A program made the position numbers and the translations under genes. Under the pieces are notes generated by a model. The model made no database searches and was not told the origin of the DNA. It worked only from the letters and a program-made list of their open reading frames with translations. A stretch of 64,000 nucleotides of DNA from Arenicola marina (taxonomy: Eukaryota > Annelida > Polychaeta > Arenicolidae). The DNA lies in NCBI GenBank assembly GCA_964019135.1, contig OZ025248.1, positions 31,489,670 to 31,553,669 on the forward strand, in the 5' to 3' direction. Position 1 is the stretch's first letter; every line of letters begins with the position of its first letter. Below are positions 3,100-63,106 of this stretch, one piece after another.

Positions 3100-3165
3100 A
3101 AACCCAGGTGGGATTTGAACCCACAATCGATCCGAAGATCAACCAACCGAATGCAAAGGGTTTGC
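3100..3165 (-). other. tRNA-Arg(TCG)-like relic
   Basis: The reverse strand carries a T-arm-like GTGGGTTCAAATCCCACC and an anticodon-loop-like CTTCGGATC, as in animal tRNA-Arg(TCG). The 5' half is not recognisable, so this is a pseudogene or SINE head. The identity is from memory of tRNA sequences. Confidence 0.45.
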
Positions 3166-3169
3166 AAGA

Positions 3170-4475: not shown

Positions 4476-4479
4476 TGAT

Positions 4480-5640: not shown

Positions 5641-5666
5641 TTACTTAACTTATATTCAGTCTATTC

Positions 5667-6386
5667 ACACTTCACAACTTTGTCAAATGTAAATATATTT
5701 TATGCCTGATAATAAGATAAAGGCTGTGATTATATTATCGTTTTATGATGCATAAATGAGCGACAACAAGCGTTTTTGACCCCTACGGCAAGGCCGAGGG
5801 GGGTCCTGACGTTACAGTTTGACAGTCTGATGCTTACTTAGCCTGAAAGTTCAGACCTTACAGTCCTGACACTTGTTCTTGTGATGGTACAGTCACAAGA
5901 ACAAGTGTCAGGACTGTAACGTCTGAACTTTCAGGCTAATGCTTACTGTAACAGTCACAAGAACAAGTGTCAAGACTGTACCGTCATTCACTCATTCAGG
6001 TCTGTGTTAACTTTTCATAAACACCGTGTCAAGTCCCGAAAACGCCCTTAAACTGTTTATAACTGGATAAATCTATACGGCATGAAGAAGCATACATCAC
6101 GTACCTCTTTTTCCTATTAACTACGTATCAGTCGGTGAAGAAACGCTTGCGTAACACAAGAAAACATGCATCGAACCTCCTGCCCGGTGAAATAAAAAAG
6201 GTAAACAAGCAATGGCGGACGCCGCTTCCGCCCGCGTCTTCTGTCCGCTGGAGGGCGCCACCTCCCAACATTCCAACATTTCAGTTGTGCTATTGGTCTA
6301 GAATGTTGGAAATGTTGGAAATACGGCCCTGTGATTGGTCGGCTAATCCAACATTTAGACGGACTTTCCGTCGCGCGGTAACGTTG
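5667..6386. repeat. Long direct repeat, copy 2
   Basis: This is the second copy of the 1-720 segment at offset 5666, with no indels detected. It is followed directly by an extra tandem copy of its last 133 bp (6387-6519), which copy 1 lacks. Confidence 0.9.
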
Positions 6387-6519
6387 GGCGCCACCTTCCA
6401 ACATTCCAACATTTCAGTTGTGCTATTGGTCTAGAATGTTGGAAATGTTGGAAATACGGCCCTGTGATTGGTCGGCTAATCCAACATTTAGACAGACTTT
6501 CCGTCGCGCGGTAACGTTG
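6254..6519. repeat. 133-bp tandem duplication with CCAAT boxes
   Basis: Two units (6254-6386 and 6387-6519) differ at about two positions, and a third copy is 588-720. Each unit holds an inverted pair CCAACATTCCAACATT / AATGTTGGAAATGTTGG and two inverted CCAAT boxes (CTATTGGTC and GATTGGTCGG). The start GCAATGGCGGACGCC lies just upstream at about 6210. The layout is promoter-like, but no gene is attached that I can recognise. Confidence 0.8.
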
Positions 6520-7022: not shown

Positions 7023-7230
7023 CTGGGGATGCCTTTTCCGATCTCCGCGATTGGCACCCCGGCAGGAATTCTTGAAGATTCGCGATTATCTATAGCTGTT
7101 GGCAATGTTGGGGGATATTTATCCGTACAACGCGAATACGCTCTCTGGCAGAAAAGACCCAATATAATGTTACACAAGACGCGGTTTTCTGTGGAACGGC
7201 GGTCTGCAGCATTCTTGGAATCGGATAGCG
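7023..7230. repeat. Dispersed repeat related to 56650-56790
   Basis: The blocks CCTTTTCCGA, GATTGGCA and GATTCGCGATTA occur in the same order as at 56660-56720. The two segments are alignable but clearly diverged. The family is unknown. The copy at 56.7 kb lies directly beside the foldback-like element. Confidence 0.6.
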
Positions 7231-19700: not shown

Positions 19701-22700
19701 ACGTCATGTTCTGCCAGCCTGAAAATCCTGACAGAGGGGGTCATATAATAAAGGGACCCCCCCAGCTGTATTAGCACAATCATCACAACATGCCACAGGC
19801 ACAGTAAATCAGTGGAGGGGGGAGGCCAGGGGGGGGGGGGGGGGGTAGGGGGCCCCACAACGCATACTAAAGACTTTAGTATGCGTTGTGGGGCCCCCTA
19901 CCCCCCCACCCCCGGCCTCCTCCCTCCACTGATTTACTGTGCCTGTGCAACATGCTCAACAAAATGCACCATAATACAATGTTTTCCTCAGCTCCAACGT
20001 CTTCAATGCAGCCCTAGCTCCTTTAATTGTCAGCATTCTGACACATTGTTTTAATCTGTGTTTACAATAGTTTGCAGTCCTCACACAGCTTAATAAAGTC
20101 TCTAAGACCAACAAAGCTGTGCTCCAATTATTGGTATCAATATTTCACCATCTGCAATGTAGCAGGTGCGGGTGGCGCATGGCAAATTTTTTTAGACCTA
20201 AATTCAAATTCAAAAAAGGCCCAGAATTTTATTTTGAGTAAAGTAACATATTTATTTTTTTACATATATGTTGATAAAATACCTGTTCATTGCTATAACA
20301 CTCTATTTTCAGGGCAATAAGATGTATCTAAAGTGAATTAAAGCCTATTTCCCCCTGTTTATATGATTTTGTATTGATCCGGCAACTGTGACACTGCGCA
20401 AAATCTTGCTGTGGTGTGACCTCTCTCTACAAGTGTCATGGCGGAGATAATGTATTAACAGGTCAAGGCGCATACTCAAATTGAAGTAATATATATACTT
20501 CAAATTAAGTAAAACTTGTATTGTTACCATATTCTCAGTAATCTGACATTTTTACCTCAATCCAGGTAACTTTCTCAAGTGTTACCTAAATTAAAGTAAC
20601 TAGTGTTTAGATAGGAGTCCAGACCTCATAGGGTGATTTTATTATGCAAATATCCATATAGTGTTCTGATTGGCTATGATTTTTTAGGTCAGCACACTTC
20701 CATATATGTATATCTTCAAAGTACAAACTCAACATGGCGGGCCAACATGTTTGCTACCTAACAAGATACTGTCTTGTAGACCCATTTATGTGGAAAATTG
20801 GTTTTGTAAGGGTATAAAATGTTGCACGAAAGTTATAGAAGGTGCCGAAATGTTTTTACAATTGGGATTACTAGTTTAAACCACATGAAATTAATTGCAT
20901 GTTCCGGAATTTGACTTTTATGTGCGGATAGGTCTCACTTTCATTCAGCAGACCCCAACCCTGTGGACAAGTCAATTTCCAAACATTTGTTTCTGTGCGA
21001 TCTTTTTCATGTTAAATAGTATTTGCTAATGTAAGCTTTGTATTTCTATACTAGAAATAAGATAAATCATTTTAGATAATTGCATGTGAAGTAGCAATTG
21101 TTTACTTCACTCATCTAGACTCTAGAATCAGCCTGTGTGACTCATGACACAGATGGGTTGTGCGCCCTCTAGCGGTTTCAGTTATTACTTCAATTACAGT
21201 AACTTCAACAAAGTCCCGCATGAATTTACTCAAACTGAAGTAACATTGCCATAAATACTAGAACTAAAGGATAAATAATAAAAGATACCTCAGTTAAAGG
21301 AAAATGCTGATTACTTCAATTTGAGTATGCGTCTCAACCTGATTAATGTCATTGTCATTGTATACCTACAAGCCATCTAATGGGGCAGGGCCATGGGAAG
21401 TGTGGCCTGCCTCCCTCTGATAGTGGAGGTGGCAGCAGGGTAAGATCTTAGCCTCTGTTTGAGCTGATCTACCGTGTAGCCCAGAACCCTAGGCTGTGTG
21501 GGTTGAAACACAGCCTAGTCGCATTCCATAGTAAAATTCTGGTCTGGAACAACCCCATTTCAGGGTTGTTTGACCTTGACCAAGTATAGCTCTGGGCGTA
21601 TTTGATTATGCGTGCGGAGTACCTCGATCACGACGTCTTGTAAATCAAACAGTGAAAATCGTGCCCCGAGCGTTGCGTCACGTGATCAATTTCACTGCGC
21701 CGCATGCTCTCGGTTTCGAGCAGGGGCACAAGGATTTCCAACATGGCGTCAAAGGAACAGCCCAAGTGGATCGTTTCACTTGCAGTTACGAGCTCGCAAC
21801 CGTATCTTGTACATGCTAGTTTAACGAGAGATCGTAAGTTTACAGGCAACGAAAGTAAGCATCATACTAATATTATTAATAACACTAATTTTTTACCCCA
21901 ATATTATTGGGGCCGTTATTATTGCGGCCAACTTCGTGCAATTTAATTTCTAGCAATATTATTAAAAAACATGTTTGTAATACATTTATGATAAACATTT
22001 TTCATTTCTCTTCGGGCAGGCAATTCATTTTTTTATTTTACTAACAAAAGTTCGAAATCTTAGTGAAATGACATCCACATAACTCCTTCGTCGGCCATGT
22101 TGCTGTCGGACAACGCGGATTTCACGTTTGAATATCCGACACACGGGACTTTAAAGGCGCATGCGCAAAAAAATCGCGCCGGGCAGGCGAAGTGCATAAT
22201 CAAATACGCCCTCTGATTCTCCTTAGCTGTGGAAAAAGTTTTATACCAGAAACAAACCTTAATCCTTTTCTTGTTACTTCCTGACAAGTAATGACTAATC
22301 ACATAAGTAACCTTTCTTGAAAGGCAAAAATAGTCCAGTCTGTCACCAGAAATTCATATGAAAACATGCTTATAATATCATGTGATGACCTTGTACATGT
22401 GCAGTGATCAACTTCCTGTACAAAAAATGGTGGCATGTGGTTATCCATTTTTATGCCTGTAGGCAATTATGGCTCCTTTTGAAGACTTTCACAACTTTGG
22501 AAGAGATCCATCAGAAATTATATATAGAAAAGTACTTTTACATTGTTGAAACTAATTATGAAAGCTATACTTAAACCATTCAATTTGTCATGTGAAGTTA
22601 ATTCTTTACTATAGAATGCTACATGGCTATAGTTCAACCATAGCCATGGATTCATGGCTAGTACCCATATCACTTTCCGAAGTGAGCCCAAGAAGAAAAT

Positions 22701-28097: not shown

Positions 28098-29145
28098 CGC
28101 GCTCCATGTTTTAAGATCCCGTGTTGAAATACTATTTCCGAAGTTGCATCGAAACGGGTTCACATGGGTATAACGAAGGTCAAGGACGCATAAGAACAAA
28201 GGTACCAAAAGGAGCTCCTTGTATCGTCATTGATCTAGGGTATTTGATTAAATCAAGCAGTACGCTTAGCATAGGTATTTTTTTTTATTTTTCCTCCTAT
28301 ATATTCCTTTCTATTCTTTTTTCTCTCTCTCACCTCCATCTTTTAAAAGAGCAGCGGCTACGTCGTCAGATGTCTCTATAACATTGACTATGCTTTGACT
28401 TACATGAATACTACCACAAAGGCATCACCATTCACGGTCACAGAAGGTTGGTCGATTTGATAGAAATAAAAATAAAAATATACTTGTCTATCGGTGTGCA
28501 AGAAAACAAAACCTACTTTGGAAAAAAAACTTTCCTTCCGCTGGCTGCGCGATGAGCGAACGGCGCTTTTCATGCAGCATTGCAACGGAACCAGCCAATG
28601 ACAGCTGAGACTGATTTGAGTGCGTCAAAGGCAAGCTCCCCGCACGGTGGCGCTGCGCAAGCTCCGTTTTTACCGCTGCTGCAAGCTGGGGTCAAATTTC
28701 AAGATTTCAAGTGAAAAACGTCAAATCAGCTGTAATTTGTTGCATTCGTTAAAATTTTCAAGAGAAAAACATAGAAATGACGAGCTCTGTGTATTTAATA
28801 CAGAAAAAACATCTCGCACCCGTTCGAAAAAGTCTGGAGGATACTTATTGGAACACTTTCGATATTAAGTAGAACTAGGATTAGATTATATAGTCAACTG
28901 CAATTTGGAAGAAAAAAGTTGTTCTCAGATAGGCATATCGAGAGAAATTGTTGATTTCTGCTTCGGAAATTGAGAGAAAGAAGGGGTATATACCTAACTA
29001 TATGAAGTGCCCCCGGGGGGTAGGGGGCCTTAACCCCCCCCCCCCCCTTGAAACAAAAGGGGTGACTTTATCGCAGACTCCCGGGCCAGTCTCCCACGCC
29101 AGATTCCCGGGCCAGACTCCCGGACCAGTCTACAACTCCCTAGGT
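28098..29145. other. Intergenic, no convincing gene
   Basis: Contains T-rich runs (28277-28345), a poly-C run at about 29034-29048 and several copies of ACTCCCGGGCCAG near 29078-29130. Nothing coding can be supported. Confidence 0.5.
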
Positions 29146-29149
29146 CCAC

Positions 29150-30668
29150 GATATTGCCCAATGTTTATGATATGGCCTAGGTACATGATATTGCCCAAGG
29201 TTCATGATATTGCCCAAGGTTCATGATATTGCCCAAGGTTCATATTTCCCAAAGTGAATGATATTGCCCAAAGTTCTTGATATTGCCCAAAGCTCTTGAT
29301 ATTGCCCAAGGTTCCTGATATTGCCCAAAGTTCATGATATTGCCCAAGGTTCATGATATTGCCCAAGGTTCATGATATTGCCCAAGTTTCATGATATGGC
29401 CCAAGGTTCATGATATTGCCCAAGGTTCATGATATTGCCCAAAGTTCATGATATTTCCCAAAGTTAATGATATTGCCCAAAGTTTTTGATATTGCCCAAG
29501 GTTCATGATATTGCCCAAGTTTCAAGATATTGCCCAAATGTTCATGATATTGCCCAAGGTTCATGATATTGCCCAAGGTACATGATATTGCCCAAGGTTC
29601 ATGATATTGCCCAAGGTACATGATATTGCCCAAGGTTCAGGATATTTCCCAAAGTTCATGATATTGCCCAAAGTTCTTGATATTGCCCAAGGTTCATGAT
29701 ATTGCCTAAGGTTCATGATATTGCCCAACGTTCATGATATTGCCCTAGGTTTATGATATTGCCCAAGGTTCCTGATATTGCCCAAAGTTCATGATTTTGC
29801 CCAAGGTTCTTGATATTGCCCAAGGTTCATGATATTGCCCAAGGTTCACGATATTGCCCAAGGTTCATGATATTGCCCAAGGTTCATGATATTGCCCAAG
29901 GTTTACGATATTGCCCTAGGTTTATGATATTGCCCAAGGTTCATGATATTTCCCAAAGTTAATGATATTGCCCAAAGTTTTTGATATTGCCCAAGGTTCA
30001 TGATATTGCCCAAGTTTCAAGATATTGCCCAAATGTTCATGATATTGCCCAAAGTTAATGATATTGCCCAAAGTTCTCAATATTGCCCAAGGTTCATGAT
30101 ATTGCCCAAGGTACATGATATTGCCCAAGGTTCACGATATTTCCCAAAGTTCATGATATTGCCCAAAGTTCTTGATATTGCCCAAGGTTCATGATATTGC
30201 CCAAGGTTCACGATATTGCCCAAGGTTCATGATATTGCCCAAGGTTCACGATATTTCCCAAGGTTCACGATATTGCCCTTGGTTTATGATATTGCCCAGG
30301 TTCACGATATTGCCCAGGTTCACGATATTGCCCAAGGTTCATGATATCGCCCAAGGTTCATGATATTGCCCAAAGTTCTTGATATTGCCCAAGGTTCATG
30401 ATATTGCCCAAGTTTCAAGATATTGCCCAAATGTTCATGATATTGCCCAAGGTTCATGATACTGCCCAAAGTTCTCGATATTGCCCAAGGTTCATGATAT
30501 TGCCCAAGGTACATGATATTGCCCAAGGTTCATGATATTGCCCAAGGTTTACAATATTGCCCAAGGTTCACGATATTGTCCAAGGTTCATGATATTGCCC
30601 AAGGTTCATGATATTGCCCAAGTTTCATGATATTGCCCAGGTTCATGATATTGCCCAAGGTTCATGAG
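29150..30668. repeat. 19-bp minisatellite, about 80 units
   Basis: The unit GGTTCATGATATTGCCCAA recurs head to tail with variants (AAAGTTCTTGATATTGCCC, TTTCAAGATATTG). As 19 is not a multiple of 3, each frame cycles through all phases and stays open, giving 19-residue protein periods on both strands that are not genes. A higher-order pattern is visible: the block with TTTCAAGATATTGCCCAAAT recurs near 29519, 30014 and 30411. Confidence 0.95.
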
Positions 30669-35440: not shown

Positions 35441-35734
35441 GAGCAATAACTAATAACTAGTTGCACCCCTGATGAGAGAAGGTTGGTTCCAGTGCCCTAA
35501 CGTGCACCGGATGCGAACAGGGTGTGTGCATTTCATTGGAATAGGCTAATCCCCATCGGCTAAAATCGGAAATTCCCTGTCACGTGTTGCGGGCCCCGGG
35601 CGGGATACCGAACCTGGCCCAAAGAAATGCGCCCTCTGTTTATCCAGCTCCACCACACCGATTTCACCACCTCCTCCCCCTACCGAGGTCTAGTTTCTCT
35701 CCATTTTATCCGATGCTCTATCGTAACAGTACTG

Positions 35735-36808
35735 TTGATAGGCAGGGGTATGTTCAACTAGGCCAGCATCTATGTAAATACAAACAGGGGCAGTGTTTAC
35801 TGTTGAGGGGCAAGGGTATGTTCAACTAGGCCAGCATCTATGTAAATACAAACAGGGGCAGTGTTTACTGTTGAGGGGCGGGGGTACCTTAAGCAGCTAA
35901 GAACAGAGGCAGCGGTAATTCCTGGAGGCTGTACTTCGCTCCTCCAGGCTCCAGACGTCTCATGGAATAAGCCGTTTAAGAGCTTCTACCGAGAGATGTA
36001 TGAAGAGTGGATGGCCCAGGGGGACCTTCCCACGACAAAGGGCGGAAACCTGAGACCCCCGACCCGTGTACAGCTGGCTACGTGGGTCAAGGCAGCCTGG
36101 GACAAAGTGCCCACCGAGCTCATCAAGAAATCGTTCGTTGTCTGCGGCGTTTCGAACGCCCTTGACAACTCACAAGATGAGGATATCAACGTCCTGAAGC
36201 CGGGAGGTATTCTTCACGAGTCAAGGGATGAAATACTACGTGAGCTGCAGAAAGCCGCAACTGCCAAGGGGGACAACTTGTTAGGTGCCTTGCCTGTGGA
36301 GGAAGACATTGAAGCCGCTGCAGAGAACGAGCTAGCCGTGGATGAGGACGAGGATGAAGATGACGATAACATTCCTCTTGCCGAGTTTCGCCTCCGATGA
36401 TGTCATGTTACATAGTCAATAAACGCATTCACAAAAAAAAAAAATTCTTGTCAAAATCGTCACAAAAAATTATTAAGCGCCCGGGTTCGAATAAGCGCCC
36501 GTTTGAATAAGCGCCCGGGGAATTGTATGCTCGAAAAAAATAACCGCCCGGGCGTTTACTCGAGCAACTACGGTATGTTCAACTGGGCCAGCATCTCTGT
36601 AACTACAAACAGGAGCAGTGCGTACTGTTCAGGGGCAGGGGTATGTACAACTGGGCCATCATCTCTGTAAATACAAACAAGAGCAGTGTGTACTGTTGAG
36701 GGGCAGGGGTCTGTTCAACGGGGCCAGCATCTTTGTAAATACAAACAGGGGCAGTGCATACTGTTGAGGGGCAGGGGTCTGTTCAACTGGGCCAGCATAT
36801 CTGTAAAG
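35735..36808. repeat. 68-bp tandem repeat interrupted by a transposon
   Basis: Units containing TGTTCAACTGGGCCAGCATC start at 35751 and 35819, then at 36576, 36644, 36712 and 36780, each 68 bp apart. The missing middle is occupied by the pogo-type fragment at 35887-36573. Confidence 0.92.
35887..36573 (+). mobile_element. Pogo/Tigger-type transposase fragment (C-terminal)
   Basis: An open frame ending at TGA 36398-36400 reads VIPGGCTSLLQAPDVSWNKP, FYREMYEEWM and FVVCGVSNALD, the C-terminal part of the DDE_1 transposase of pogo/Tigger elements (family known), then an acidic tail DEDEDEDDDN. AATAAA is at 36418. The right end has repeated AAGCGCCCGGG motifs and stops at GAGCAACTACGG. The N-terminal DNA-binding part and the left terminus are missing. 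TA dinucleotides flank the piece (35885-35886, 36574-36575), the target expected of this family. Confidence 0.9.
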
Positions 36809-38045: not shown

Positions 38046-38222
38046 CTCACAACGCATGATGAATTTATCATTGTTGGATCATAAACATCCCTGCACCTAA
38101 CACATGGAGCCTTGACAGCCATTAGATCTAATAAACAATTTATACTTTTTATTATTTCTTCTTGTTATTTCTATTTCCATCTTCCACGCAAGCCAACGAT
38201 AATATCATTAACACAGTTGTAT

Positions 38223-40110
38223 TGCGGAGTCTGACCAGGCATCCCTCTATTGCGAGGTATGACCAGGCATCCCTCTATTGCGAGGTATGACCAGACATCC
38301 CTCTATTGCGGAGTCTAACCAGACATCCCTCTATTGCGGAGTCTAACCAGACATCCCTCTATTGCGGAGTCTGACCAGACATTTATGTAGTGCGGAGTCT
38401 GACCTGACATCCCTCTATTGCGGAGTCTGACCAGGCATCCCTCTATTGCGGAGTCTGACCAGGCATCCCTCTATTGCGAGGTATGACCAGACATCCCTCT
38501 ATTGCGGAGTCTAACCAGACATCCCTCTATTGCGGAGTCTGACCAGGCATCCCTCTATTGCGGAGTCTGACCAGACAGCCCTCTATTGCAGTCTGACCAG
38601 GCATCCCTTTATTGCGGAGTCTGACATGACATCCCTCTATTGCGGAGTCTGACTAGACATCCCTCTATTGCGGAGTCTGACCTGACATCCCTCTATTGCG
38701 GAATCTGACTAGACATCCCTCTATTGCGGAGTCTAACATGACATCCCTCTATTGCGGAGTCTAACCAGACATCCCTCTATTGCGGACTCTGACCAGGCAT
38801 CCCTCTATTGCGGAGTCTGACCAGACAGCCCTCTATTGCAGAGTCTGACCAGGCATCCCTGTATTGCGGAGTCTGACATGACATCCCTCTATTGCGGAGT
38901 CTGACTAGACATCCCTCTATTGCGGAGTCTGACCTGACATCCCTCTATTGCGGAATCTGACTAGACATCCCTCTATTGCGGAGTCTAACATGACATCCCT
39001 CTATTGCGGAGTCTGACCTGACATCCCTCTCTTGCGGAGTCTGACCAGACATCCCCATATTGCGGAGTCTGACCTGACATCCCTCTATTGCGGAGTCTGA
39101 CTAGACATCCCTCTATTGCGGAGTCTAACCAGACATCCCCCTATTGCGGAGTCTGACCAGACATCCCCCTATTGCGGAGTCTGACCAGACATCCCCCTAG
39201 TGCGGAGTCTGACCAGACATCCCCCTATTGCGGAGTCTGACCAGACATCCCCCTATTGCGGAGTCTGACCAGACATCTCTCTATTGCGCAGTCTGACCAG
39301 ACATTTATGTAGTGCGGAGTCTGACCTGACATCCCTCTATTGTGGAGTCTGACCTGACAGCCCTCTATTGTGGAGTCTGATCTGACATCCCTCTATTGCG
39401 GAGTTTGGCCGGACATCCCCCTATTGCGGAGTCTGACCAGACATCCCTCTATTGCGGAGTCTAACCAGACATGCCTCTATGGCGGAGTCTAACCAGACAT
39501 GCCTCTATTGCGAAGTCTAACCAGACATGCCTCTATTGCGGAGTCTAACCAGACTTGCCTCTATTGCGAAGTCTAACCAGACATGCCTCTATTGCGGAGT
39601 CTAACCAGACATGCCTCTATTGCGGAGTCTAACCTGACTTGCCTCTATTGCGAAGTCTAACCAGACATGCCTCTATTGCGGAGTCTAACCAGACATCCCC
39701 ATATTGCGGAGTCTGACCAGACATACCTCTATTGCGGAGTCTAACCAGATATGCCTCTATTGCGGAGTCTAACCAGACATGCCTCTATTGCGGAGTCTAA
39801 CCACACATGCCTCTATTGCGGAGTCTAACCAGACTTGCCTCTATTGCAAAGTCTAACCAGACATGCCTCTATTGCGGAGTCTAACCAGACATGCCTCTAT
39901 TGCGGAGTCTAACCAGACATCCCTCTATTGCGGAGTCTAACCAGACATGCCTCTATTGCGGAGTCTAACCAGACTTGCCTCTATTGCGGAGTCTGACCAG
40001 ACATGCCTCTATTGCGGAGTCTGGCCAGACATGCCTCTATTGCGGAGTCTAACCAGACATGCCTCTATTACGAAGTCTGACCCGACGTCCCTCTATTGCG
40101 GAATGTGACT
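38223..40110. repeat. 28-bp minisatellite, about 66 units
   Basis: The unit ATCCCTCTATTGCGGAGTCT plus GACCAGAC repeats at 28 bp. Variants partition the array: ATCCCTC units dominate the left and ATGCCTC units the right (from about 39470), so the two halves amplified separately. No coding content. Confidence 0.95.
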
Positions 40111-43900: not shown

Positions 43901-45436
43901 GGGAAGGCAGTCGCGCAGTGCGCAACAATATCAAGGTAAGATTAATGTTACGATAACATAATAAACATATACAATTGCATGCTATGCGATAGCAAAGCTT
44001 GCGGTATAATCATATTATAAACCGTCTTTGATTATATAACATGACTGATAATTGTAACAACTAACAACCTTTCGCCATTCGCCCAGAACGAGTTGCCTTT
44101 TGCTTCAACTGAGAAATATCATGCGCTGCGTGGATCAGTTAACATTAACATCCGGAATCGAATGTCCCATGTAATCTAATTATATTTGTAACCAATTACT
44201 TACAAATCAGCATCAGCGCCGGTATGTGTGTGGCTCGGGAGGGGGGGGGGGGGCGGTGCTATAACCGTTTAGGCCGTAAGTTTAATTATTGCCTTTACTT
44301 ATCGCCGAAGCAAATAGGCAAAAATTAGATATTTTGCAAGCTGAGCGTTTTTACTTTGTAATTCAATATTTGACCTGTGTAGTTGCCATTTTTTTCTTAT
44401 ATAGAATGAAATATCAAGGAATATTAACTGTATTTAAAACAAATAGTTATTGATTTTAGGTAAATGAATGTTATATTGACCGGCTTGGTATTAATAATTA
44501 AAATTAAAATTTTGAATTATTTAGGTTTCTCTTTTATGATATTTATTAAATGATATCTTTTAGGCCATGATGCCTCCAAATGCACGCTCTTTATGTCTTT
44601 AACGGGTGACGTGAATTGAACGAGCAATGAAACGCCTCTTTTCTTAAAGACATAAAACTTTTCCGAATCAGTTTCCATGGTTGAGTTTCCAACATTATTA
44701 TTCAACCGTGCATACTCGACCCAACCTCTTAGCCTCATTGACAAACCAGGATCTTGCCTACGTCGTGTCCCTTAACGACATATCTGTCAAATGTTTTGTG
44801 TGTTTCGCGGATCATGATTAGTCAGCTAGAGGCATATTTATAAAACTCCTTAACTTACCAGGGCGAATCCCCGGGGTGGGGTAGGGGCAAGACGCCCTCC
44901 AATAAAACTGCTCATGGTAATGTTAACCCCCCTTATGGTAACCAGACTGCTTTTAAAAAAATAAATGGGCCCCCTTCCCCCGAACCCAACTCCTGATTCC
45001 CCCCCCCTCCCCCCCCCCCCAACCCCACCCCACCCCCGAGATTCTAACCTCTTTCATGGTGTGCCGAAGTCAGGGGGCGCAAATACAAATTAGGAAACGA
45101 TAGCAGTTACGCCGTTGCCATGGTGTATGTCGGCGTATGTAGGCTTTATCCTATTAATACGGCAGCAGTTGAAGCTTGGGGGTCTGTGCCCGGGTTTCTG
45201 TACACAACGGCTGTGTCACACGGAACCTTATCCCGACTACCCCAGATCCGCAACGATAGTGTGTAAGCAGTCAACACCGCGGTAAATGCACCGTGCTAGT
45301 GTAACAAAGAAATGTGTTTGTTCCATATCGCGGAACAGTACAGTTTATTGTTTCTTTTCCGTTGGGTCGCTTGCGGCCGATATTCGATTCCCGCCTCTGT
45401 AACCATATCCCTCTTCAGCTTTCTCTCCACAAATAT
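43901..45436. other. Intergenic, no convincing gene
   Basis: AT-rich, with poly-G near 44239-44254 and long poly-C tracts near 45000-45045. Nothing coding can be supported. Confidence 0.5.
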
Positions 45437-45444: not shown

Positions 45445-45583
45445 CAGGAGCGGATCTAGGAATTTGCAAGGGTGGGGGGGTTGCTCTCTGAAAACTTGCG
45501 ACCGGGAGGGGGATGCTCGGAGAAGCCGACTTTAACAGTGGAACCCCCGTAACCCCCCCCCCCCCCCTCTAGATCCGCCTCTG
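45445..45583. mobile_element. 139-bp MITE abutting the 14-bp array
   Basis: Ends CAGGAGCGGATCTAG and, reversed, CAGAGGCGGATCTAG are inverted repeats, flanked by GTCATT (45439-45444) and GTCATC (45584-45589), a 6-bp target duplication with one mismatch. The inside is poly-G/poly-C. It belongs to the same loose family as 22891-23247. The minisatellite starts directly after the right target copy. Confidence 0.75.
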
Positions 45584-45587: not shown

Positions 45588-48290
45588 TCGGCCATCCCTC
45601 GTCTGCCATCCCTCCTCCGCCATCCCTCGTCCGCCATCCCTCCTCGGCCATCCCTCGTCTGCCATCCCTCCTCCGCCATCCCTCGTCCGCCATCCCTCCT
45701 CGGCCATCCCTCGTCCGCCATCCCTCCTCGGCCATCCCTCGTCCGCCATCCCTCCTCGGCCATCCTTCCTCGGCCATCCTTCCTCGGCCATCCCTCCTCA
45801 GCCATCCTTCATCGACCATCCCTCGTCTGCCATCCCACGTCCGCCATCCCTCCTCGGCCATCCCTCCTCGGCCATCCCTCCTTGGCCATCCCTCCTCGGC
45901 CATCCCCGTCCGACATCCCTCGCCCGCCACTCCTTCTCGGCCATCCCTCGTCTGCCATCCATTCTCGGCCATCCCTCCTCGGCCACCCCTCGTCCGCCAT
46001 TCCTCCTTGGCCATCCATCGGCCGCCATCCCTCGTCCGCCAGCCCTCCTAGGCCATACCTCTTCGGCCATTTCTCCTCGGCCATCCCTCGCCAGCAATCC
46101 CTCCTTGGCCATCCCTCGCCCGCCATCCCTTCTCGGCCATCCCTAGTCCGCCATCCCTCCTTGGCCATCCCTCCTCGGCCATCCCTCGTCTGCCATCCAT
46201 TCTCGGCCATCCCTCCTCGGCCATCCATTCTCGGCCATGCCTCCTTGACCATCCAGCCTCGGCCATCCCTCCTCGGCCATCCCTCCTCGGCCATCCCTCC
46301 TCGGCCATCCCTCTTCCGCCGTCCCTCCTCGACCATCCCTCCTCGGCCATCCCTCCTCGACCATCCCTCCTTGGCCATCCCTCCTCGACCATCCCTCCTT
46401 GGCCATCCCTCCTCGGCCATCCCTCTTCCGCCATCCTTCCTCGGCCATCATTCCTCGGCCATCCCTCCTTGGCCATCCCTCCTCGGCCATCCCTCGTCTG
46501 CCATCCCTCCTCGGCCATCCATTCTCGGCCATCCCTCCGCGGTCATCTCTCCTCGGCCATCTCTCCTCGGCCATCCCTCCTCTGCCATCCCTCCTCGGCC
46601 ATCCATTCTCGGCCATCCCTCCTCGGCCATCCCTCCTTGGCCATCCCTCCTCGGCCATCCATTCTCGGCCATCCCTCCTCGGCCATCCCTCCTTGGCCAT
46701 CCCTCCTCGGCAATCCCTCGTCCGCCATCCATTCTCGGCCATCCCTCCTCGGCCATCCCTCCTCGGTCATCCCTCCTTGGCCATCCCTCCTCGGCCATCC
46801 CTCCTCGGCCATCCCTCGTCCGCCATCCCTCCTTGGCCATCCCTCCTCGGCCATCCCTCCTCGGTCATCCCTCCTTGGCCATCCCTCCTCGGCCATCCCT
46901 CCTCGGCAATCCCTCGTCCGCCATCCATTCTCGGCCATCCCTCCTCGGCCATCCCTCCTCGGTCATCCCTCCTTGGCCATCCCTCCTCGGCCATCCCTCC
47001 TCGGCAATCCCTCGTCCGCCATCCATTCTCGGCCATCCCTCCTCGGCCATCCCTCCTCGGTCATCCCTCCTTGGCCATCCCTCCTCGGCCATCCCTCCTC
47101 GGCAATCCCTCGTCCGCCATCCATTCTCGGCCATCCCTCCTCGGCCATCCCTCCGCGGTCATCCCTCCTCTGCCATCCCTCCTCGGCCATCCATTCTCGG
47201 CCATCCCTCCTCTGCCATCCCTCCTCGGCCATCCATTCTCGGCCATCCCTCCTCGGCCATCCCTCCTTGGCCATCCCTCCTCGGCCATCCATTCTCGGCC
47301 ATCCCTCCTCGGCCATCTCTCCTCGGCCATCCCTCCTCTGCCATCCCTCCTCGGCCATCCATTCTCGGCCATCCCTCCTCGGCCATCCCTCCTCGGCCAT
47401 CCCTCGTCCGCCATCCCTCCTTGGCCATCTTTCCTCGGCCATTCCTCGCCCGCCACCCCTCGGCCGCCATCCCTCGGCCGCGATCCCTCCTCGGCAATAC
47501 CTCATCGGCCATCCCTCGTCTGCTATCCCTCCTCGGCCATCTCTCGTCCGCCATCCCTCCTTGGCCATCCCTCCTCGGCCGTCACTCCTCGACCATCCCT
47601 CCTTGGCCATCCCTCCTCGATCATCCCTCCTTGGCCATCCCTCCTCGGCCATCCCTCGTCCGCCATCCCTCGCCTACCATCCATCCTCGGCCATCCCTCG
47701 TCTGCCATCCATTCTCGGCCATCCCCCCTCGGCCATGCATTTTCGTCCATCCCTCCTCGGCCTTCCGTCCTTGGCCATCCCTCCTCGGCCATCCCTCGGC
47801 CGCCATCCCTACTTGACTATCCCTCGTCCGCCATCCGTCGTCTGCTATTCATTCTCGGCCATCCCTTGTCAGCCATTCCTCAACCGCTATCCGTCCTTGG
47901 CCAGCCTTCCTCGGCCATCCCTCCTCGGCCATCCCTCGCCCGCCATTCCTCCTCGGCCATCCCTCCTCGGCCATCCTTCGTCTGCCATCCATTCTCGGCC
48001 ATCCGTCCTCGGCCATCCGTCCTCGGCCATCCATTCTCGGCCATACCTCCTCGGCCATCTCTCCTCGGCCATCCCTTCTCCGCCATCCCTCTTCGGCCAT
48101 CCCTCGTCCGCCATCCCTCCTCAGCCATCCCTCGTCCGCCATTCCTCCTCGGCCATCCCTTGACCATCCCTCATCCGCCATCCACTACCGGCCATCTCTA
48201 CTCGGTCATCCTCCTTCGGCCGTCCCTTGTCGGCCATACCACTCCCGCCATCCCTCGTCGGCCATCCATGATCGGCCTTTCGTCTTAAAA
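45588..48290. repeat. 14-bp minisatellite with 98-bp higher-order repeats, 2.7 kb
   Basis: The unit CCATCCCTCCTCGG repeats about 190 times. Between about 46680 and 47140 a seven-unit block (98 bp) is repeated with little change; identical blocks begin every 98 bp (for example GCAATCCCTCGTCCGCCATC at 46710, 46908, 47006 and 47104). Frames of over 600 codons (AIPPRPSLLGHPSS) and the opposite-strand MAEEGWPRRDGRGG arise because 14-bp units lack stops in several frames. No start context, splice pattern or composition supports a gene. Confidence 0.95.
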
Positions 48291-50319: not shown

Positions 50320-52432
50320 CTAGGTGCAGATGGAGACCAGGTAGAGACCAGGTAGGTGCATATGGAGACAAGGTAGGTGTACATAGAGACCAGGTGGGTG
50401 CAGATGGAGACCAGGCATGTGCAGATGGAGACCATGTGGGTGCAGATGGAGACCAGGTAGGTGCAGATGGAGACCAGGTAGGTGTACATAGAGACCAGAT
50501 AGGTGGAGGTACAGACCAGGTGGGTGCAGATGGAGACCAGGTAAGTGCATGTAGCTACCAGGTAGGGGCAGGTAGAGACCAGGCAGGTACAGGTAGAGAC
50601 CGAATACAGACTATGTAGAGCTCATGTAAATTGACCGAGACCAGGTAGATGCAGGCAGAGACCAGAGGTGCAGGTAGAGACCAGGTATTTGCAGATCGAG
50701 ACCAGGTAGGTGCAGGTAGAGACCAGGTAGGTGCAGATGGGACACGGTAGGTGCAGGTAGAGACCAGGTAGTTGCAGATGAGACCAGGTAGGTAAGGTAG
50801 AGACCGGATAGGTGCAGGTAGAGACCAGATAGAGACTATGTAGAGCTCATGTAAACGGACCGAGACCAGGTAGGTGCAGATGGAGACCCGGTAGATGCAG
50901 GTAGAGACCAGGTAAGTGTAGATGGAGACTAGGTAGGTGCAGGTAGAGACCAGGTAAGTGTAGATGGAGACTAGGTAGGTGCAGGTAGAGACCAGGTAAG
51001 TGTAGATGGAGACTAAGTTGGTGCAGGTAGAGACCAGGTAAGTGTAGATGGAGACTAGGTAGGTGCAGGTAGAGACCAGGTAAGTGTAGATGGAGACTAG
51101 GTAGGTGCTGGTAGAGACCAGGTAAGTGTAGATGGAGACTAGGTAGATGTAGGCAGAGACCAGGTAAGTGTAGATGGAGACCCGGTAGATGCAGGTAGAG
51201 ACCAGGTAGTTGCAGATGAGACCAGGTAGGTAAGGTAGAGACCGGATAGGTGCAGGTAGAGACCAGATAGAGACTATGTAGAGCTCATGTAAACGGACCG
51301 AGACCAGGTAGGTGCAGGCAGAGACCAGCTAGGTGCAGATGGAGACCCGGTAGATGTACATAGAGACCAGGTAGATGCAGATGGAGACCAGCTAGGTGCA
51401 GGTAGAGACCAGGTAAGTGTAGATGGAGACTAGGTAGGTGCAGGTAGAGACCAGGTAAGTGTAGATGGAGACTAGGTAGGTGCTGGTAGAACCCAGGTAA
51501 GTGTAGATGGAGACTAGGTAGATGTAGGCAGAGACCAGGTAAGTGTAGATGGAGACCCGGGAGATGCAGGTAGAGACCAGGTAATTGTAGATGGAGACTA
51601 GGTAGGTGCAGGTAGAGACCAGGTAAGTGCAGATCGAGACCAGGTAGGTGCAGGTAGAGATCAGGTTGGTGTATATATAGAACAGGTAGGTAAGGTAGAG
51701 ACCAGTTAATTGCAGATCGAGACACGATAGGTGCAGATGAAACAAGGTAGGTGCAGGCAGAGACCAGCTAGGTGCAGATGGAGACCCGGTAGATGCAGGT
51801 AGAGACCAGGTAATTGTAGATGGAGACTAGGTAGGTGCAGGTAGAGACCAGGTAAGTGCAGATCGAGACCAGGTAGGTGCAGGTAGAGATCAGGTTGGTG
51901 TATATATAGAACAGGTAGGTAAGGTAGAGACCAGTTAAGTGCAGATCGAGACACGATAGGTGCAGATGAAACAAGGTAGGTGCAGGCAGAGACCAGGTAG
52001 GTGCAGATGGAGACCAGGTAGGTGCAGATGGAGACTAGGTAGGTGCAAGTAGAGACCAGGTAGGTGCAAGTAGAGGCCAGGTAGATTACATAGAGACCAG
52101 GTAGGTGCAAGTAGAGACCAGGTAGGTGCAAGTAGAGGCCAGGTAGATTACATAGAGACCAGGTAGGTGCAAGTAGAGACCAGGTAGGTGCAAGTAGAGG
52201 CCAGGTAGATTACATAGAGACCAGGTAGGTGCAAGTAGAGACCAGGTAGATTACATAGAGACCAGGTAGGTGGAGGTACAGACCAGGTGGGTGCAGATGA
52301 GACAAGGTAGGTGCAGGCAGAGACCATGTAGGTACAGGTAGAGACCAGGTAGGTACAGATAGAGACCAGGTAGGTACAGGTAGAGACCAGGCATGTACAT
52401 GTAGAGACCAGGTAGGTACAGGTACAGACCAG
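50320..52432. repeat. 21-bp minisatellite with a 229-bp internal duplication
   Basis: The unit GTAGAGACCAGGTAGGTGCA plus one base repeats about 100 times. As 21 is seven codons, the minus strand reads heptads such as LPGLYLH without being a gene. A block from GGTAATTGTAGATGG (51580) recurs at 51809, offset 229. The right part (52030-52260) has a different repeating form with AGGTAGATTACATAGAGACC. Confidence 0.93.
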
Positions 52433-52539
52433 GGCCCGTAAGTTCAGAACGGCCGGAGCAAAATATTTCGCCCTGGAATAGGACATTAACATGGAGCGGG
52501 GCGAAATATTTGGCCCCGGCCGTTTCGAACTTACGACCC
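52433..52539. mobile_element. 107-bp hairpin MITE inside the 21-bp array
   Basis: Left arm 52433-52473 and right arm 52498-52539 are inverted copies containing CGTAAGTTC, ACGGCCGG and AAATATTTCGCCC, separated by 24 nt. Array sequence lies on both sides, so it inserted into an existing array. The target duplication is not clear. Confidence 0.8.
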
Positions 52540-56649: not shown

Positions 56650-56793
56650 GGGGGAACCTTTTCCGACTTTCGAGATTGGCATCCAGGAATATTTGGAGAT
56701 TCGCGATTAGCTTTTGGGTATCGTTAGCCGTGTAAATCCTGGTTCAACGCGAAGACCCTTTCCCTATTTACCGCTCAGTCTTGAGCAGTCCTC
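56650..56793. repeat. Dispersed repeat related to 7023-7230
   Basis: Shares CCTTTTCCGA, GATTGGCATCCAGG and GATTCGCGATTA blocks with the 7-kb copy in the same order. It ends at the GTCCTC target duplication of the next element. Confidence 0.55.
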
Positions 56794-58137
56794 TATCGCA
56801 AGCCGTTTTAATAAAAAATCACCTATTATACATATCTTTAATGCAATGCCACATATCTATATTACAATTTTAGATATCTTTAATTCAATTTTAGATATCT
56901 TTAATTCAATTTTAGATATCTTTAATTCAATTTTAGATATTTTTAATTCAATTTTAGATATCTGTAATTCAATTTTAGATATCTTTAGTTCAATTCTAGA
57001 TATCTTTAATTCAATTCTCGATATCTTTAATTCAATTTTAGATATCTTTAAATAGTTACCACATCTCTATATTTCGTTTATATTTAGATATCTGAAATAG
57101 TATTCAAGATATCTAAAATTGAATTAAAGATATCTGAAAAGCTGACACTATTTTGCTTATCTTGAAATGAAATTAAGATATCTTGATTACAATTTTAGAT
57201 ATCTTGAATACAATTTTAGATATCTTAAATACAATTCTAGATATCTAAATAGAGGGCGCCAACATGTGTTTCTGTAATTACCGGAAAGAAGAATCCGCCC
57301 TTCACCTTCACTCTTATCATGGCTGCGCGAAGTACGGAGTCTGGAACTGGGGGTGTTTATGATAGTGTTGCGGTCGCTGCAGGAGGCGGAGCGCATTTTA
57401 ATACATGGAGACACGCAAAGGGCCCAAGAAGCAGAGCCAGTCGACCAGCGTCACCGCACAGCAGACCTCGTGCCGCAGACATCTTGCCGGAAGTCAATAT
57501 AAATGTTTTCGGCATTTAGCAACTTTATTTGACATCAGTGGCGCCTTCTATTTGGATATCTAAAATTGAATTTTAGATATCTAGAATTGTATTTAAGATA
57601 TCAATAATTCCTTTTAAGATATCAATAATTCCTTTTAAGATATCAATAATTCCTTTTAAGATATCTTTAAAGGTGGCATTTATAGATATCTTTAAAAGAA
57701 TTGAAGATATCTGAATTGTTAATTTGGCTATGTAGAAATCCCACCTATTTAAGTTGAGAAAAAATAGATGCGTCACATATCCATAATTGCACATGAGATA
57801 TCCATAATTGAATTTGACATATCCATAACTGAATTTGACATATCCATAATTGAATTTGACATATCCATAATTGAATTTGACATATCCATAATTACACTTG
57901 ACATATCCATAATTGCTTTTAAGATATCTTAAATTCAATTTTGGATATGTGACTCATGTATTTTTTCTCAACATAAATTGATGAGTAATCTACATATCCA
58001 CATTAACAATTCAGATATCTTACATTCATTTAAAGATATCTTTAATTATTTAAAGATATCTTTAATTATTTAAAGATATCTTTAATTATTTAAAGATATC
58101 TTAAATTGGTGATTTTTTATTAAAACGGCTTGCGATA
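56794..58137. mobile_element. Foldback-like element, 1344 bp, perfect 30-bp termini, TSD GTCCTC
   Basis: The ends are exact inverted repeats of 30 bp beginning TATCGCAAGCCGTTTTAATA (56794-56823 and 58108-58137). They are flanked by identical GTCCTC at 56788-56793 and 58138-58143. The arms (to about 57260 and from about 57545) are built of tandem GATATC-centred units such as TTTAATTCAATTTTAGATAT on the left and AAGATATCAATAATTCCTTT or TGACATATCCATAATTGAAT on the right. The inner arm ends also mirror each other (TAGAGGGCGCCA and its reversed TAGAAGGCGCCA). The core 57262-57540 is unique, GC-richer and contains a short open frame. Long terminal arms made of short tandem repeats are the hallmark of foldback elements. 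The superfamily is not assigned. Confidence 0.9.
57319..57519 (+). other. 66-codon open frame in the core of the foldback-like element
   Basis: It starts MAARSTESGTGGVYDSVAVA and ends ADILPEVNINVFGI. Two GGAA ETS-type motifs (TACCGGAAAG near 57280, TGCCGGAAGT near 57487) flank or overlap it. It resembles a captured host first exon more than a transposase, but no donor site or homology is visible. Confidence 0.2.
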
Positions 58138-58143
58138 GTCCTC

Positions 58144-60345
58144 ATCTTGGTGATTCGATATTACTCTCCCTAATTCAGATGGCGCGAATGCAAATTAAGT
58201 AACTTCCTTCGCCGTTGAATTGTCCCTAATCTAGTAATATTCAATTCGGGAATTAATGGTCCTCGTATGGGATCGAGCCACCAGATTGTCTGAGGGTCAA
58301 GTCTTCATGGACGCCTAAAGTATCCGCCAGTGAAGGGCCGGCGGAATAACATCCGGTAATGATGCAGCAGATGACAATAAACCGCCTTGTTATGTAGGTT
58401 TATATTGACTTGCATTTGACAGCGCTTTCAGTCCGTAAGGCGATATCGTGCCATTGTGATTTAAGAAGCATTAATTTACAGTTTCTGCGAACCTCAAATA
58501 TACAGTTATGTCACACGGTGTGATGCAGCGTCACTTCTAATGAGCATGGCGCCAGATATGTAAAGAAAATTATTCCGAGTAAATGGAAATAAAAACTGAC
58601 GAAATAAATAATTGGATTACGATAGCGCCATGGCAGCGGTGGATCTACAGGAAGTTGAAAAGGGCGGGGGGGCGAGGGTTACTGAAAACTGGCGACCGGG
58701 GGGAGGTGAAAATGACCGGAGGGTCCACCAATGTTTTAACGACTAATTATTTACCTGGGGGCGGTTTCACACCTCAGAACGCTTGATTTGTCATGGAAAA
58801 ACGGCAATTCTTCCTCAATAAGGATAATGGAAGAAAAATGGGGGGAGGGCGGGTGATTCCGTCTCAGTTCACGAAGAACTGAATTGTATGAGAATTGCAA
58901 CACCCACTGTTTAACAATCACGCCTATCGGTAAGGAAACAATTGTAGTTTGAACTTCTCAGTTCACATAGACATCAAGTCATGAGCACATGTGTCTCCGG
59001 ACTTCCAATGCCCAATCTATACATATGTAGGATAACCCGCAGCGTAATTTTGAAGAGTCTCAAAAAATGTATACCGAATATATCTTATGTATCCATATTA
59101 ATAAGGCCGAAATAGAAACAACCTGTGGCATATTGTTGGTCATAATATAAGTCTGAACGGGTGTGACGTTGGATCAGGACCGCCATGTTATGGATATACT
59201 AATTACCACTTCTACTACTGCTACCACTTCTACCGCGTTTCCTGGGAGCCTTCTTGGCTCAGATTAGTTCCGGCGCGTTTAGTTTATTGATATCGTATTC
59301 GATGTGATCATTCACATGTGTATTCGCTGTTGAAAAACCTCGCAACATAAACAAAGTTTATGCAATATTTTTTCAAAAAAATTAAAGTCCAAAAAAAAAA
59401 AATATCAACTGTTGACGTTTCTCCACACATTGTTTAATGGTCGCTTACTCGTTGTGGGTTTCCTGACGTCATGCAATAAGCTTCATGGCAAGTGGTGACA
59501 GGTTGCCTGGCATCAGATCTGCTAGTCACGTGTGCCGTCCCGTACGTGGGTGCCGATAAATACCCTGATCACTGTGTGAAACAAAATGGCGGCGCTATAT
59601 GCTTATCTCGTACTATGAGCCGCCGTCCCGTACAGTATGAAAGGGATTATCGTTATTAATCCAGTAATTAGTGGTTATGTATTGGGGACACCAGGTGCTG
59701 TCAACAAGTACAAAATCGAGCTCTTCCAGCTGGTTGACATATCATGTATCCGCCTCTTCCATTGCATACGGGGACTTCTCCTTTTAATTCATCGTGACCT
59801 GGGTATAAAGAATTGTATTGTTCGTCACTAAGCTTCACTTGGGAACACGGTCCCCCCTTGCCCTTCCCCTTTACAGGTGTAAGCCCATACAATTGTAGTC
59901 ATGGTACTAAAGAGTCATTTTTCGTAAAAAGTTTCGTAATATAATTTTAGTTTACACAATCTATGGGACAAAGATTCTATGTGTGGCTATATAATACATG
60001 AATTAAATCAATGAAATATTCTATTAAGTGGCGGATCCAGGAGGGGCGCCCCGCCCCCGTTCAGGAACGAGCCAAGCACTGTTAAATTCGGAGTTTTGAG
60101 GAAATATTTGGTTTGGAGGAAAATATTCTCGCACGGGGTCTGGCGCCCCTGGCCGATAATCACCAAGCATCGTGCCGGTGATCTGATCTGGAACGTCTAC
60201 CCGCGATAAAATAGTCCGCGCAGTTTAATTTTGCAGAATCAACGAGATATAAAACATATGCATCATAAATTTTGAGATAATTTTAGTATTGATTGGCGCA
60301 TGTACATAGGCTGCTTTAGCATCCACAACATGTTTTTTGTTCTGT
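58144..60345. other. Intergenic upstream of the secreted-protein gene
   Basis: No gene is supported. Segments near 58632-58740 (GCGGTGGATCTACAGG) and 60029-60160 (GGCGGATCCAGGAGGGGCGC) belong to the loose family of G-rich MITE-like repeats seen at 22891 and 45445. AT-rich DNA fills the rest. A splice-acceptor-like TTTTTTGTTCTGTAG ends at 60347, so a 5' non-coding exon may lie in this region. Confidence 0.4.
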
Positions 60346-60364: not shown

Positions 60365-63106
60365 ATGGCGGCTCATCTCTGCAGGTTCCTCGTTCTGTCT
60401 TTGATGCTTCTAAATCTCTGGGGGCAAACCGAAGGAAAGTCCGTGAAGGTCAGGGACAGGAGGGACTCGTTCCGGGTATCGTCCCTGGATCGCCCGTCAC
60501 ACACCAGCGACACGGAAGAATCAGGCTACGAGGGGGATCAAACGGGGCCTCAAAGAGCGCGTTGGCATGACAATATTAACAATCCGGGATCCGTTGATGT
60601 GTGGCAAAATCCCGATCTAGATGGAAAACCTCCCACGCGGAGTCCCGTTAAAGGTACGACGACGCGTTCAGCGGCGGTAGATAATGAAACACCGGCCAAC
60701 AGCGCTGAATCCCAGGCTCCACTCGCGGTTATGTCCAAGCTGGAACGGTTGAAGGTTTTGGTGTTTCGACTGCAGCAGCGTCTGATGCGACTGGCTGGAC
60801 GCTCCGAAGAGCCGATGGCCACAAAAGAACCCGCGCATGCGCAGTCGCTACCAACGGAACTGGCGCAAACCAAGAAAGGTCTGCGCAGGACGCTGAAGCA
60901 GCTCCGCGTTCGCCTAGATAGGACAAAGGACAGGCTGGGCCGGGGCGGGTCGAGAAATCTCCACCGGCCGACCAAAGTTACGAAACTAAAGACAAAGAAC
61001 AATGACAAATCAGGGCAAAAAGGGAAAGCAGTGTCGACGTTAGTCCGGAATGAGTACAAAAACATTGGTTGTCGATTAGTTAAGGAGACCCGGCGTCGTA
61101 CAAAGCGAGGCACTATTGAGACAGTCATATCGGAGGGATCCTTCGGGCCATTCCAAGCACTCGGAGGAAGCGAAGAGGACGCCGGGAATGCCGCAAGTCC
61201 TTGGGGATCGTTCCGCAATTTCCAAGATGAAGATGAAGTATTGAGAGACCCGGATGGGGTGTTCGGGGGTTTCCCGGTGGAGGATGCAACGCCGGTAAGA
61301 CCTCCCGGCTTCGGTGACGTCACATCCGCTTCATGGGCAGGCTTCGGCTCCAACTCCGCCGGGGACAGTTCCCGCGGCACTTTGCGATCCCGCGGGTTCC
61401 ACGCACCGGACAGGAAGCCGGGCGGGGAGTTCGTGAGATCCGGGTTCGATCAACCTGGGAGACCCTATCAACTATCTCACGTGGGGCGCATGACGGCGAC
61501 ACACGCTGACACTGAGAGGAAAGGGTGGCGGCAACCTAGAGGTTCATTTGAAGATGAGGAAGCGACGGTAGGTTAAAACGAAAATGCTCGTTAAAATGCG
61601 AATGTTCGAGCACTTGTTGCTGTCAAGACTGACTCGGTCCACATATATATAATGAGAACGTATCTGCCACTCCCCTCCCCCTCCGCGTCGCTGGCGTTTT
61701 ATCTCCCTACCCCCCACCAACCCTGAGCATTAATCCTGGAAATATTTCTCTTGTAGCAAGATCAGGATTACTTTAATAATTTTCTATTTCATTTAATATA
61801 TATATGTTTTGTTGGTCAATGTTGCATTGTGTCATTATGCAACGCTTTAATAATCAAACGTAGACCTAATTGAAATGTATTCCTTCTTTCATATGTACAG
61901 GAGCATCAAGGGGAGGACTGGACTTCTGAGGGGGACACATGGCGTAAGCACAATTTCTAGAGTCTAAGATAAATTGAAGTATCTCATTCTGTCTATATCA
62001 TTGCTTTACGATATAAACAAATGATAACTACCATTACTGATTTTTTTCTCATCAAGCTACACAACTTTGCACCCGTTCCCTTGGAATGAGTTATGTGCCT
62101 GTGTCAGAGAGCAGGAATACATCGACAGTGAATTTATTTGAGCGTGCTCTTCAAATATAGGTCATAATAGTGTAAATAGCAAAATATTAAATCTAATCGA
62201 TTCCTACAGCAAATCGACATAATATTGTGGTAATATGTCACCTATGTAGGACCGGACGATCGAACAAGGGATACGAGAATGCGTAAAACACATCAGACTA
62301 TACATATACAGTAATGTTTAATACTTGCCATGCCTAGGATTACCAAATAGAAGCTTGTAATGCATGGTAATTAACTGTAATGCATAAGATTACACAATGG
62401 TAATTGTAATGCATAATAATACAAAATAGTAATTGTAATGCATAATATTACACAGTGGTAATTGTAATGCATAATATTACACAATGATAATTGTAATGCA
62501 TAATATTACACAGCGGTAATTGTAATGCATAATATTACACAATGGTAAATGGTAATGCCTTGGATTACAAAATTGCTCATTATGACGCGTATAGTATTGC
62601 CAAATTGCAAGTGGTCATCGCTAATAGCGCAAAACTGTAATGCAAAGTTCTAAAAACTTATAAATTGTAATGCCTGGTAAACTTGTAATGACTATTATTA
62701 TATTTCTGCAGACGAGGGACCAATAAGCGAAGAGAATCTCGGAGCGAAGCCCCTGCCTGGAGGCTTCCTTCCGGAAGACAACTGGTCCCAGGGAGGATTC
62801 GAAGACATTTCTCATGGGAGTTGGTCCGGAGGTGATCCATGGGGTGGATTCCAGGCATCCAGAGAGATACAAGAGGAGATACAAGAAGAGGCGGAAGACG
62901 ACATGGCATGGGCGATCAACAGGCACGGAGCCTCCTCCCCCGCCCAGGCCTGGCAAAGTAACAACCTCCACCACCAGATGGCGACACCGGACAGCGTAGA
63001 TGAGGATCAACCGGAAGCCGATAAGGATCGTGCCAACGCGGCTGTTAGGCAGGAAAATGCCGGGGAACTCGATACGATTTATCGCCTAGAATGTCCGCAA
63101 GAATGA
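60365..63106 (+). CDS. Predicted secreted 546-residue protein with furin site and W/F-G-x-F repeats, family unknown
   Basis: Three exons join in phase with GT-AG introns: 60365-61567, 61901-61943 and 62712-63106. Residues 1-24 form a signal peptide (FLVLSLMLLNLWG core). Residues 123-149 and 162-191 are basic, leucine-spaced helices (L166/L173/L180 and L177/L184/L191), likely coiled coil. R245-T-K-R248 before G249 is a furin-type site. After it the protein turns acidic and repeats aromatic-glycine motifs: SFGPF (259-263), PWGSF (279-283), VFGGF (299-303), SWAGF (323-327), NWSQGGF (439-445) and PWGGF (458-462). The mature part has only two cysteines, C236 and C543, so a disulfide could link the two halves after cleavage. 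An acceptor-like site at 60347 suggests an upstream 5' UTR exon. It could be a proprotein or an extracellular matrix component; I recognise no homolog. Confidence 0.8.
62340..62565. repeat. 29-bp minisatellite in intron 2 of the secreted-protein gene
   Basis: Units of GGTAATTGTAATGCATAATA then TTACACAAT recur at 29 bp (AATTGTAAT at 62402, 62431 and 62460). ATGCAT and TAATATTA palindromes lie in each unit. It ends about 150 bp before exon 3. Confidence 0.9.

Follow-up and report, generated by a model that had tools for sequence, protein, structure and literature searches.

Foldback architecture among transposons is assigned mainly to the Mutator superfamily, with exceptions that include Galileo of the P superfamily (PMC4079207). 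Tetris, a foldback element of Drosophila virilis, resembles the element described here in being apparently non-autonomous and modular, with inverted termini that contain internal tandem repeats, but it generates duplications of 8-10 bp and its authors place it in Mutator (PMC4079207). Galileo shares long, internally repetitive termini, in which the repeats contain binding sites for a domain of the transposase (PMC3688188), and it differs by its 7-bp duplications, its termini of more than 1 kb and its P-type transposase (PMC3688188, PMC3573991). Tm1 of root-knot nematodes has composite inverted termini with short repeats of about 14 bp, whereas its target site duplications (TSDs) comprise 8-10 bp, most commonly 9 bp, and the element is of the Mutator type (PMC3169594). 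Rehavkus, which is hosted by insects and annelids, also carries a minisatellite within the element; this minisatellite, however, precedes the 3' terminal inverted repeat (TIR), and the TSD is 9 bp long (PMC6446971). For IS3EU, the termini are described as 'always' TA..TA and the TSDs as 'usually 6 bp', with GingerRoot being similar (PMC10045372), while fungal IS3EU members are described with a 6-bp TSD, TAYGG..CCRTA ends and a TIR of more than 30 bp (PMC12730594).

The locus considered here lies on contig OZ025248.1 of the annelid Arenicola marina, within a stretch of 64,000 nucleotides that was analysed as a whole (the window) and to which all positions refer. The segment 56794-58137 (1344 bp) is almost certainly a transposed element, and its anatomy supports the view that it is very probably a foldback-like, non-autonomous DNA transposon. 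We lean, with modest confidence, towards a cut-and-paste mobility that would be supplied in trans by an IS3EU-type transposase, i.e. one of the integrase-related IS3EU/GingerRoot group. The repeat units of TIR-220 in Tetris are much longer than those of this element.

Ends and insertion site of the element

An earlier note on this DNA had described a foldback-like element whose 30-bp inverted ends are perfect and whose flanks carry an exact duplication of 6 bp, with arms built of GATATC-centred units, mirrored inner arm ends, and a GC-richer core containing a 66-codon frame and two ETS-type motifs. The foldback-like anatomy was borne out, and inverted ends, repeat-built arms and middle domain were all located:

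56788-56793, no strand: left TSD GTCCTC, identical to 58138-58143
56794-56823, plus strand: left 30-bp TIR, TATCGCAAGCCG..., perfect, with two matches in the window where none is expected
56824-57246, plus strand: left arm, built of GATATC-centred 21-bp units and interrupted at spacings of 46 and 48 bp
57247-57261, plus strand: left inner arm end AAATAGAGGGCGCCA, an inverted match to 57539-57553 at 14 of 15 positions
57262-57538, no strand: middle domain (core), 277 bp, 50% GC, CpG observed/expected 0.98, best second match in the window at E 0.2
57319-57519, plus strand: 66-codon ATG frame in the core, putative gene
57539-57553, minus strand: right inner arm end (TGGCGCCTTCTATTT), mirroring the left inner end
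57554-57654, minus strand: inner array of the right arm, AAGATATCAATAATTCCTTTT-type units
57655-57802, plus strand: first arm of a smaller internal foldback within the right arm, an inverted match to 57923-58065 in 121 of 148 columns
57775-57915, plus strand: array of 6.7 copies of ACATATCCATAATTGAATTTG at the centre of the internal foldback, overlapping the first arm of that foldback
57923-58065, minus strand: second arm of the smaller internal foldback within the right arm, an inverted match to 57655-57802
58013-58107, minus strand: outer array of the right arm, mainly 20-bp units
58108-58137, minus strand: right 30-bp TIR, a perfect inverted copy of the left TIR
58138-58143, no strand: right TSD GTCCTC, identical to the left TSD

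When the terminal 30-mer was searched for with up to 3 mismatches, exactly two matches were found in the window, both of them perfect, versus a mean of 0 in 100 shuffles. GTCCTC is present on both sides, an agreement with a chance of about 2.5e-4 at a fixed boundary. The exact inverted match extends to 31 bp if the C/G just outside the ends, which is part of the flanking duplication, is included. A 7-bp reading of the duplication, AGTCCTC, fits equally if the final A of the right end is assigned to the duplication, and it leaves the ends uneven by one base. The window was also scanned for exact inverted-repeat pairs of at least 11 bp with starts 60-6000 bp apart (n=394), and 40 of these pairs are flanked by a direct repeat of at least 4 bp after trimming of up to 3 end bases. 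The pair of the element is the longest of the 40 (31 bp, followed by 27 and 26 bp), and the 27-bp runner-up (227-5884) is a by-product of a 720-bp duplication. The 26-bp pair delimits a MITE-like element of 154 bp at 19794-19947, with perfect ends CACAGGCACAG... and an exact 8-bp duplication, CAACATGC, which is the usual hAT length.

No further 30-bp ends were found elsewhere in the window, and comparison of the complete element with the rest of the window returned only nine short, chance-level matches (best E 0.07). Three TIR and array patterns had no match in IMG/VR, and one TIR pattern had none in GTDB contigs, these collections being viral and prokaryotic DNA with little bearing on a eukaryote. 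Of 12 published papers that print one or more of six sequence words, none concerns a transposon as judged by title, and six further words, drawn from the window's other repeats, had no match in published papers.

When the joined flanks were compared with the remainder of the window, none of the 13 matches with E values of up to 5 spans the junction as expected for an empty-site relative; two of them have E values below 0.01 (7032-7091 and 45452-45512). The flank segments 56657-56712, 58641-58706 and 58169-58203 match sequences elsewhere in the window, at 7032-7091 (E 1e-7), at 45452-45512 (E 2e-4) and weakly at 45064-45098 (E 0.38), and the element may therefore have inserted within repeat-rich DNA. 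Close to the right end, TTGGTGATT is found at 58106-58122 inside the element and again at 58147-58163 outside it, which may be due to chance.

Tandem arrays abound in the window, among them four long minisatellites, at 29138-30667 (19-bp unit), 38220-40109 (28 bp), 45588-48267 (14 bp) and 50338-52433 (21 bp). A 720-bp sequence is present in direct orientation at 1-720 and 5667-6386, about 5.7 kb apart and 100% identical, and its last 134 bp have a further copy of 98.5% identity at 6386-6519; the pair is a recent duplication, an LTR-like pair or an assembly artefact. On the minus strand, 34265-35043 matches reverse transcriptase (RVT_1) in two frames and is probably a decayed retrotransposon. 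A plus-strand frame at 35846-36400 matches the end of the DDE_1 profile and lies beside a 68-bp tandem repeat whose copies occupy 35730-35886 and 36572-36807. Downstream of the element, 60365-61575 and 62714-63106 on the plus strand are possible exons of one unknown protein without a Pfam match, whose first residues, judged by eye, resemble a signal peptide.

Arms and middle domain

The element contains 30 GATATC sites versus 15 in the remaining 62,656 bp of the window, and 200 base shuffles of the element gave a mean of 0.4 and a maximum of 4 sites. Of 38 distances between one ATATC and the next, 28 measure exactly 21 bp, or about two turns of B-DNA, and three measure 20 bp. The GATATC series is interrupted by phase breaks with gaps of 46, 48, 25 and twice 70 bp, and by 315 bp across the core. 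The vector strength at 21 bp is only 0.28 for the whole element (0.46 for the left and 0.21 for the right arm), which gives no support to one continuous array kept strictly in 21-bp phase. Because the spacers shift the phase, the values for the whole element are higher at 21.5 bp (0.68) and at 22 bp (0.70), and the 21-bp phasing is local to stretches of the arms.

The inner arm ends, AAATAGAGGGCGCCA and AAATAGAAGGCGCCA, mirror each other at 14 of 15 positions, and outside the arrays the mirroring between the arms is confined to these 15-bp ends and the outer 30 bp. The whole-arm alignment (304 of 425 columns) rests on the arrays and was discounted as a sign of a simple long inverted repeat. 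For the left spacer and the right inner spacer, the alignment score was attained in 60% of 400 shuffles; for comparisons with the right outer spacer, scores were attained by 85% and 92% of shuffles, and for the second left spacer by 12%. Long inverted termini of short tandem repeats that flank a middle domain place the element in the foldback structural class, with the limit that the spacers of its left and right arms lack homology. In addition to the anatomy described earlier, a smaller foldback with 82% identity over 148 columns lies complete within the right arm, and the non-array spacer of this internal foldback reached a score of 73 versus at most 25 in 400 shuffles. The calculated single-strand fold energy of the element is -265.1 versus -106.5 +/- 6.7 for 12 dinucleotide shuffles (z about -24), and a strong capacity to fold back is predicted. 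A likeness of the inner ends to CTCF sites was considered and rejected, because both have 3 mismatches in 14 positions to the CTCF consensus, a match too loose to be informative. Throughout the window there are 110 such CTCF-like sites versus 84 expected, a number reached by 0 of 100 shuffles, and many of them are located in tandem arrays.

Between the inner arm ends lies the core, in which the earlier note had seen a possible captured exon, the family being one that would take up promoter or first-exon DNA of the host. Such a Pack-type carrier of gene fragments would be compatible with any superfamily. Capture is favoured by the step from 21% and 24% GC in the arms to 50% in the core, by the CpG observed/expected ratio of 0.98, by the presence of CCGGAA twice in the core, by an ATG preceded by A at -3 and followed by G at +4, and by a codon score that is matched by 6% of 3000 plain shuffles. 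The core is indeed richer in GC than the arms, but the flanks have 48% and 43% GC and the right flank, with 43% GC and a CpG ratio of 1.03, is close to the core in both values; as the composition of the core is so near that of the flanks, the arms are the compositional outlier and the core resembles the surrounding DNA. The 66-codon frame is present within the core, but 141 of 3000 shuffled cores yield a frame of at least 66 codons. Its codon score is attained by 42% of 600 open-frame shuffles and, among 1191 overlapping open frames of 66 codons and similar GC from other parts of the window, by 17%, so that the low share among plain shuffles is mostly due to the open frame itself. A neighbouring reading frame scores almost equally in codon usage (-7.8 versus -7.5 for the core frame). 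The codon table derives mostly from the long frame at 60365, itself without a Pfam match, and five of six pieces of that frame scored positive.

The 66-codon frame has no match in PDB or Pfam, no other core frame of at least 50 aa reached the Pfam cut-off, and none of 33 stretches in IMG/VR that match its peptide pattern was confirmed, viral DNA having little bearing on a eukaryote. Comparison of the core with the rest of the window gave four short matches at chance level (best E 0.2). As for the ETS-type motifs, CCGGAA does occur twice, a somewhat uncommon outcome (at least as many in 65 of 5000 shuffles), but the fuller pattern RCCGGAARY is not enriched, with five occurrences in the window versus 3.2 expected (24 of 100 shuffles reach five) and one in the core. 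The core is moreover placed exactly between the mirrored inner ends, like a standard middle domain. With a codon usage like that of shuffled open frames, a frame length that arises in shuffled cores and no Pfam or PDB match, the idea that host promoter or first-exon DNA was captured is unsupported; we consider it improbable, and the frame is not convincing as a gene.

A second account of the core would make it, together with its 15-bp inverted ends (57247-57553), a small transposon nested in the GATATC array. Such a transposon would have inverted ends of its own, matching at 14 of 15 positions, and GATATCT flanks it on both sides; GATATCT, however, occurs 26 times in the element and therefore does not point to a duplication. 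The core is bordered by arrays of opposite orientation, as expected around a foldback loop or middle domain, and nesting is in our view very improbable. The core is best taken as the element's own middle domain.

Superfamily assignment

Among 15 stop-to-stop frames of at least 40 aa that overlap the element, the 10 of at least 50 aa within or overlapping it were compared with Pfam; no transposase family was listed and no curated cut-off was reached, the best sub-threshold matches (E 0.014 and 0.031) being frames from the arrays. Since these frames have no transposase match, the element is most likely non-autonomous and moved in trans, and TSD length and terminal bases serve as guides to its classification.

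The element ends in TATCG..CGATA, in agreement with the TA..TA termini of IS3EU, and GTCCTC has the usual IS3EU length of 6 bp, with the uneven-ended 7-bp reading as a possible alternative. Compared with the fungal members, for which alone the narrower description is given, TAY is present but CG replaces GG, and the TIR measures 30 bp. The earlier statement that a 6-bp duplication with these termini fits no superfamily is thus not supported, because the descriptions of IS3EU match both the ends and the TSD (PMC10045372, PMC12730594). These two hallmarks, terminal bases and TSD length, make an IS3EU assignment somewhat probable. The element resembles IS3EU and GingerRoot in its TA..TA termini and its 6-bp target duplication (PMC10045372) but differs by having no transposase and by its repeat-built foldback arms. 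No description of foldback arms or minisatellites in IS3EU was found in the open literature, with Repbase, preprints and most subscription papers outside the search, and the family of the element may already be catalogued. An oyster satellite survey gives the label IS3EU to two of its 52 satellites and has foldback only in its reference list (PMC8268682).

Mobilisation by the Mutator or P superfamily would make the element a foldback like Tm1, Tetris or Galileo, with a duplication that is unusually short or misread. Mutator seems to account for most foldbacks, albeit with exceptions (PMC4079207), MuDR with its prokaryotic kin IS256 is assigned TSDs of 4-10 bp (PMC10045372), and the possible 7-bp reading AGTCCTC would equal the 7-bp duplications of Galileo copies (PMC3573991), but this reading leaves the ends uneven by one base. 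The TSDs of the Mutator-type foldbacks, with 8-10 bp in Tm1 (mostly 9) and Tetris and 9 bp in Rehavkus, are longer than the 6 bp, or at most 7 bp, seen here, and this mismatch excludes a likeness to Tm1, Tetris and Rehavkus while leaving Mutator overall, with the 4-10 bp range of MuDR/IS256, within the comparison. We regard a Mutator or P origin as unlikely. The transposase that moves this type of element could also be a hAT enzyme from the hAT6 group. The hAT end consensus is YARNG, with which TATCG agrees at four of five positions but which is violated by the T at the third. Families of hAT6 with 6-bp TSDs exist, but the usual hAT TSD is 8 bp (PMC12730594). A hAT6 origin is rather less credible and would come as a surprise.

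Polintons are large, gene-bearing elements expected to have AG..CT ends, which are not seen here, and Dada elements make a 6-7 bp duplication in multicopy RNA genes; no RNA gene was found in the window by Rfam at gathering score. The length of the duplication agrees with the Polinton TSD, which is 6 bp (PMC10045372). An IS3EU-type transposase remains the preferred candidate.

Proposed mechanism and significance

A transposase encoded elsewhere would bind both 30-bp termini, and it may find additional binding sites in the GATATC units, which are spaced at about two helical turns. Joining of the ends across a 6-bp stagger in the target would then produce the GTCCTC duplication. The arms may have lengthened as the unit slipped or was exchanged unequally and as sequence was duplicated in inverted orientation, and inverted duplication could also have created the smaller foldback within the right arm. 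The long repetitive termini of Galileo contain sites for the THAP domain of its transposase, and the same source calls such a binding-site role untested for Foldback and Phantom elements (PMC3688188). By analogy, a role of the 20-21 bp units in transposase binding is putative.

It is most improbable that an IS3EU-type lineage has independently evolved the entire combination of a foldback form, arrays of 21-bp transposase sites and a swappable middle domain that here holds a promoter and first exon captured from the host. If the element belongs to IS3EU, the main puzzle of this locus, its 6-bp duplication, would be removed, and an integrase-related lineage would join the foldback-bearing groups. 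Such an assignment would also agree with the view that arms built of repeats evolve where additional binding sites benefit the transposase.
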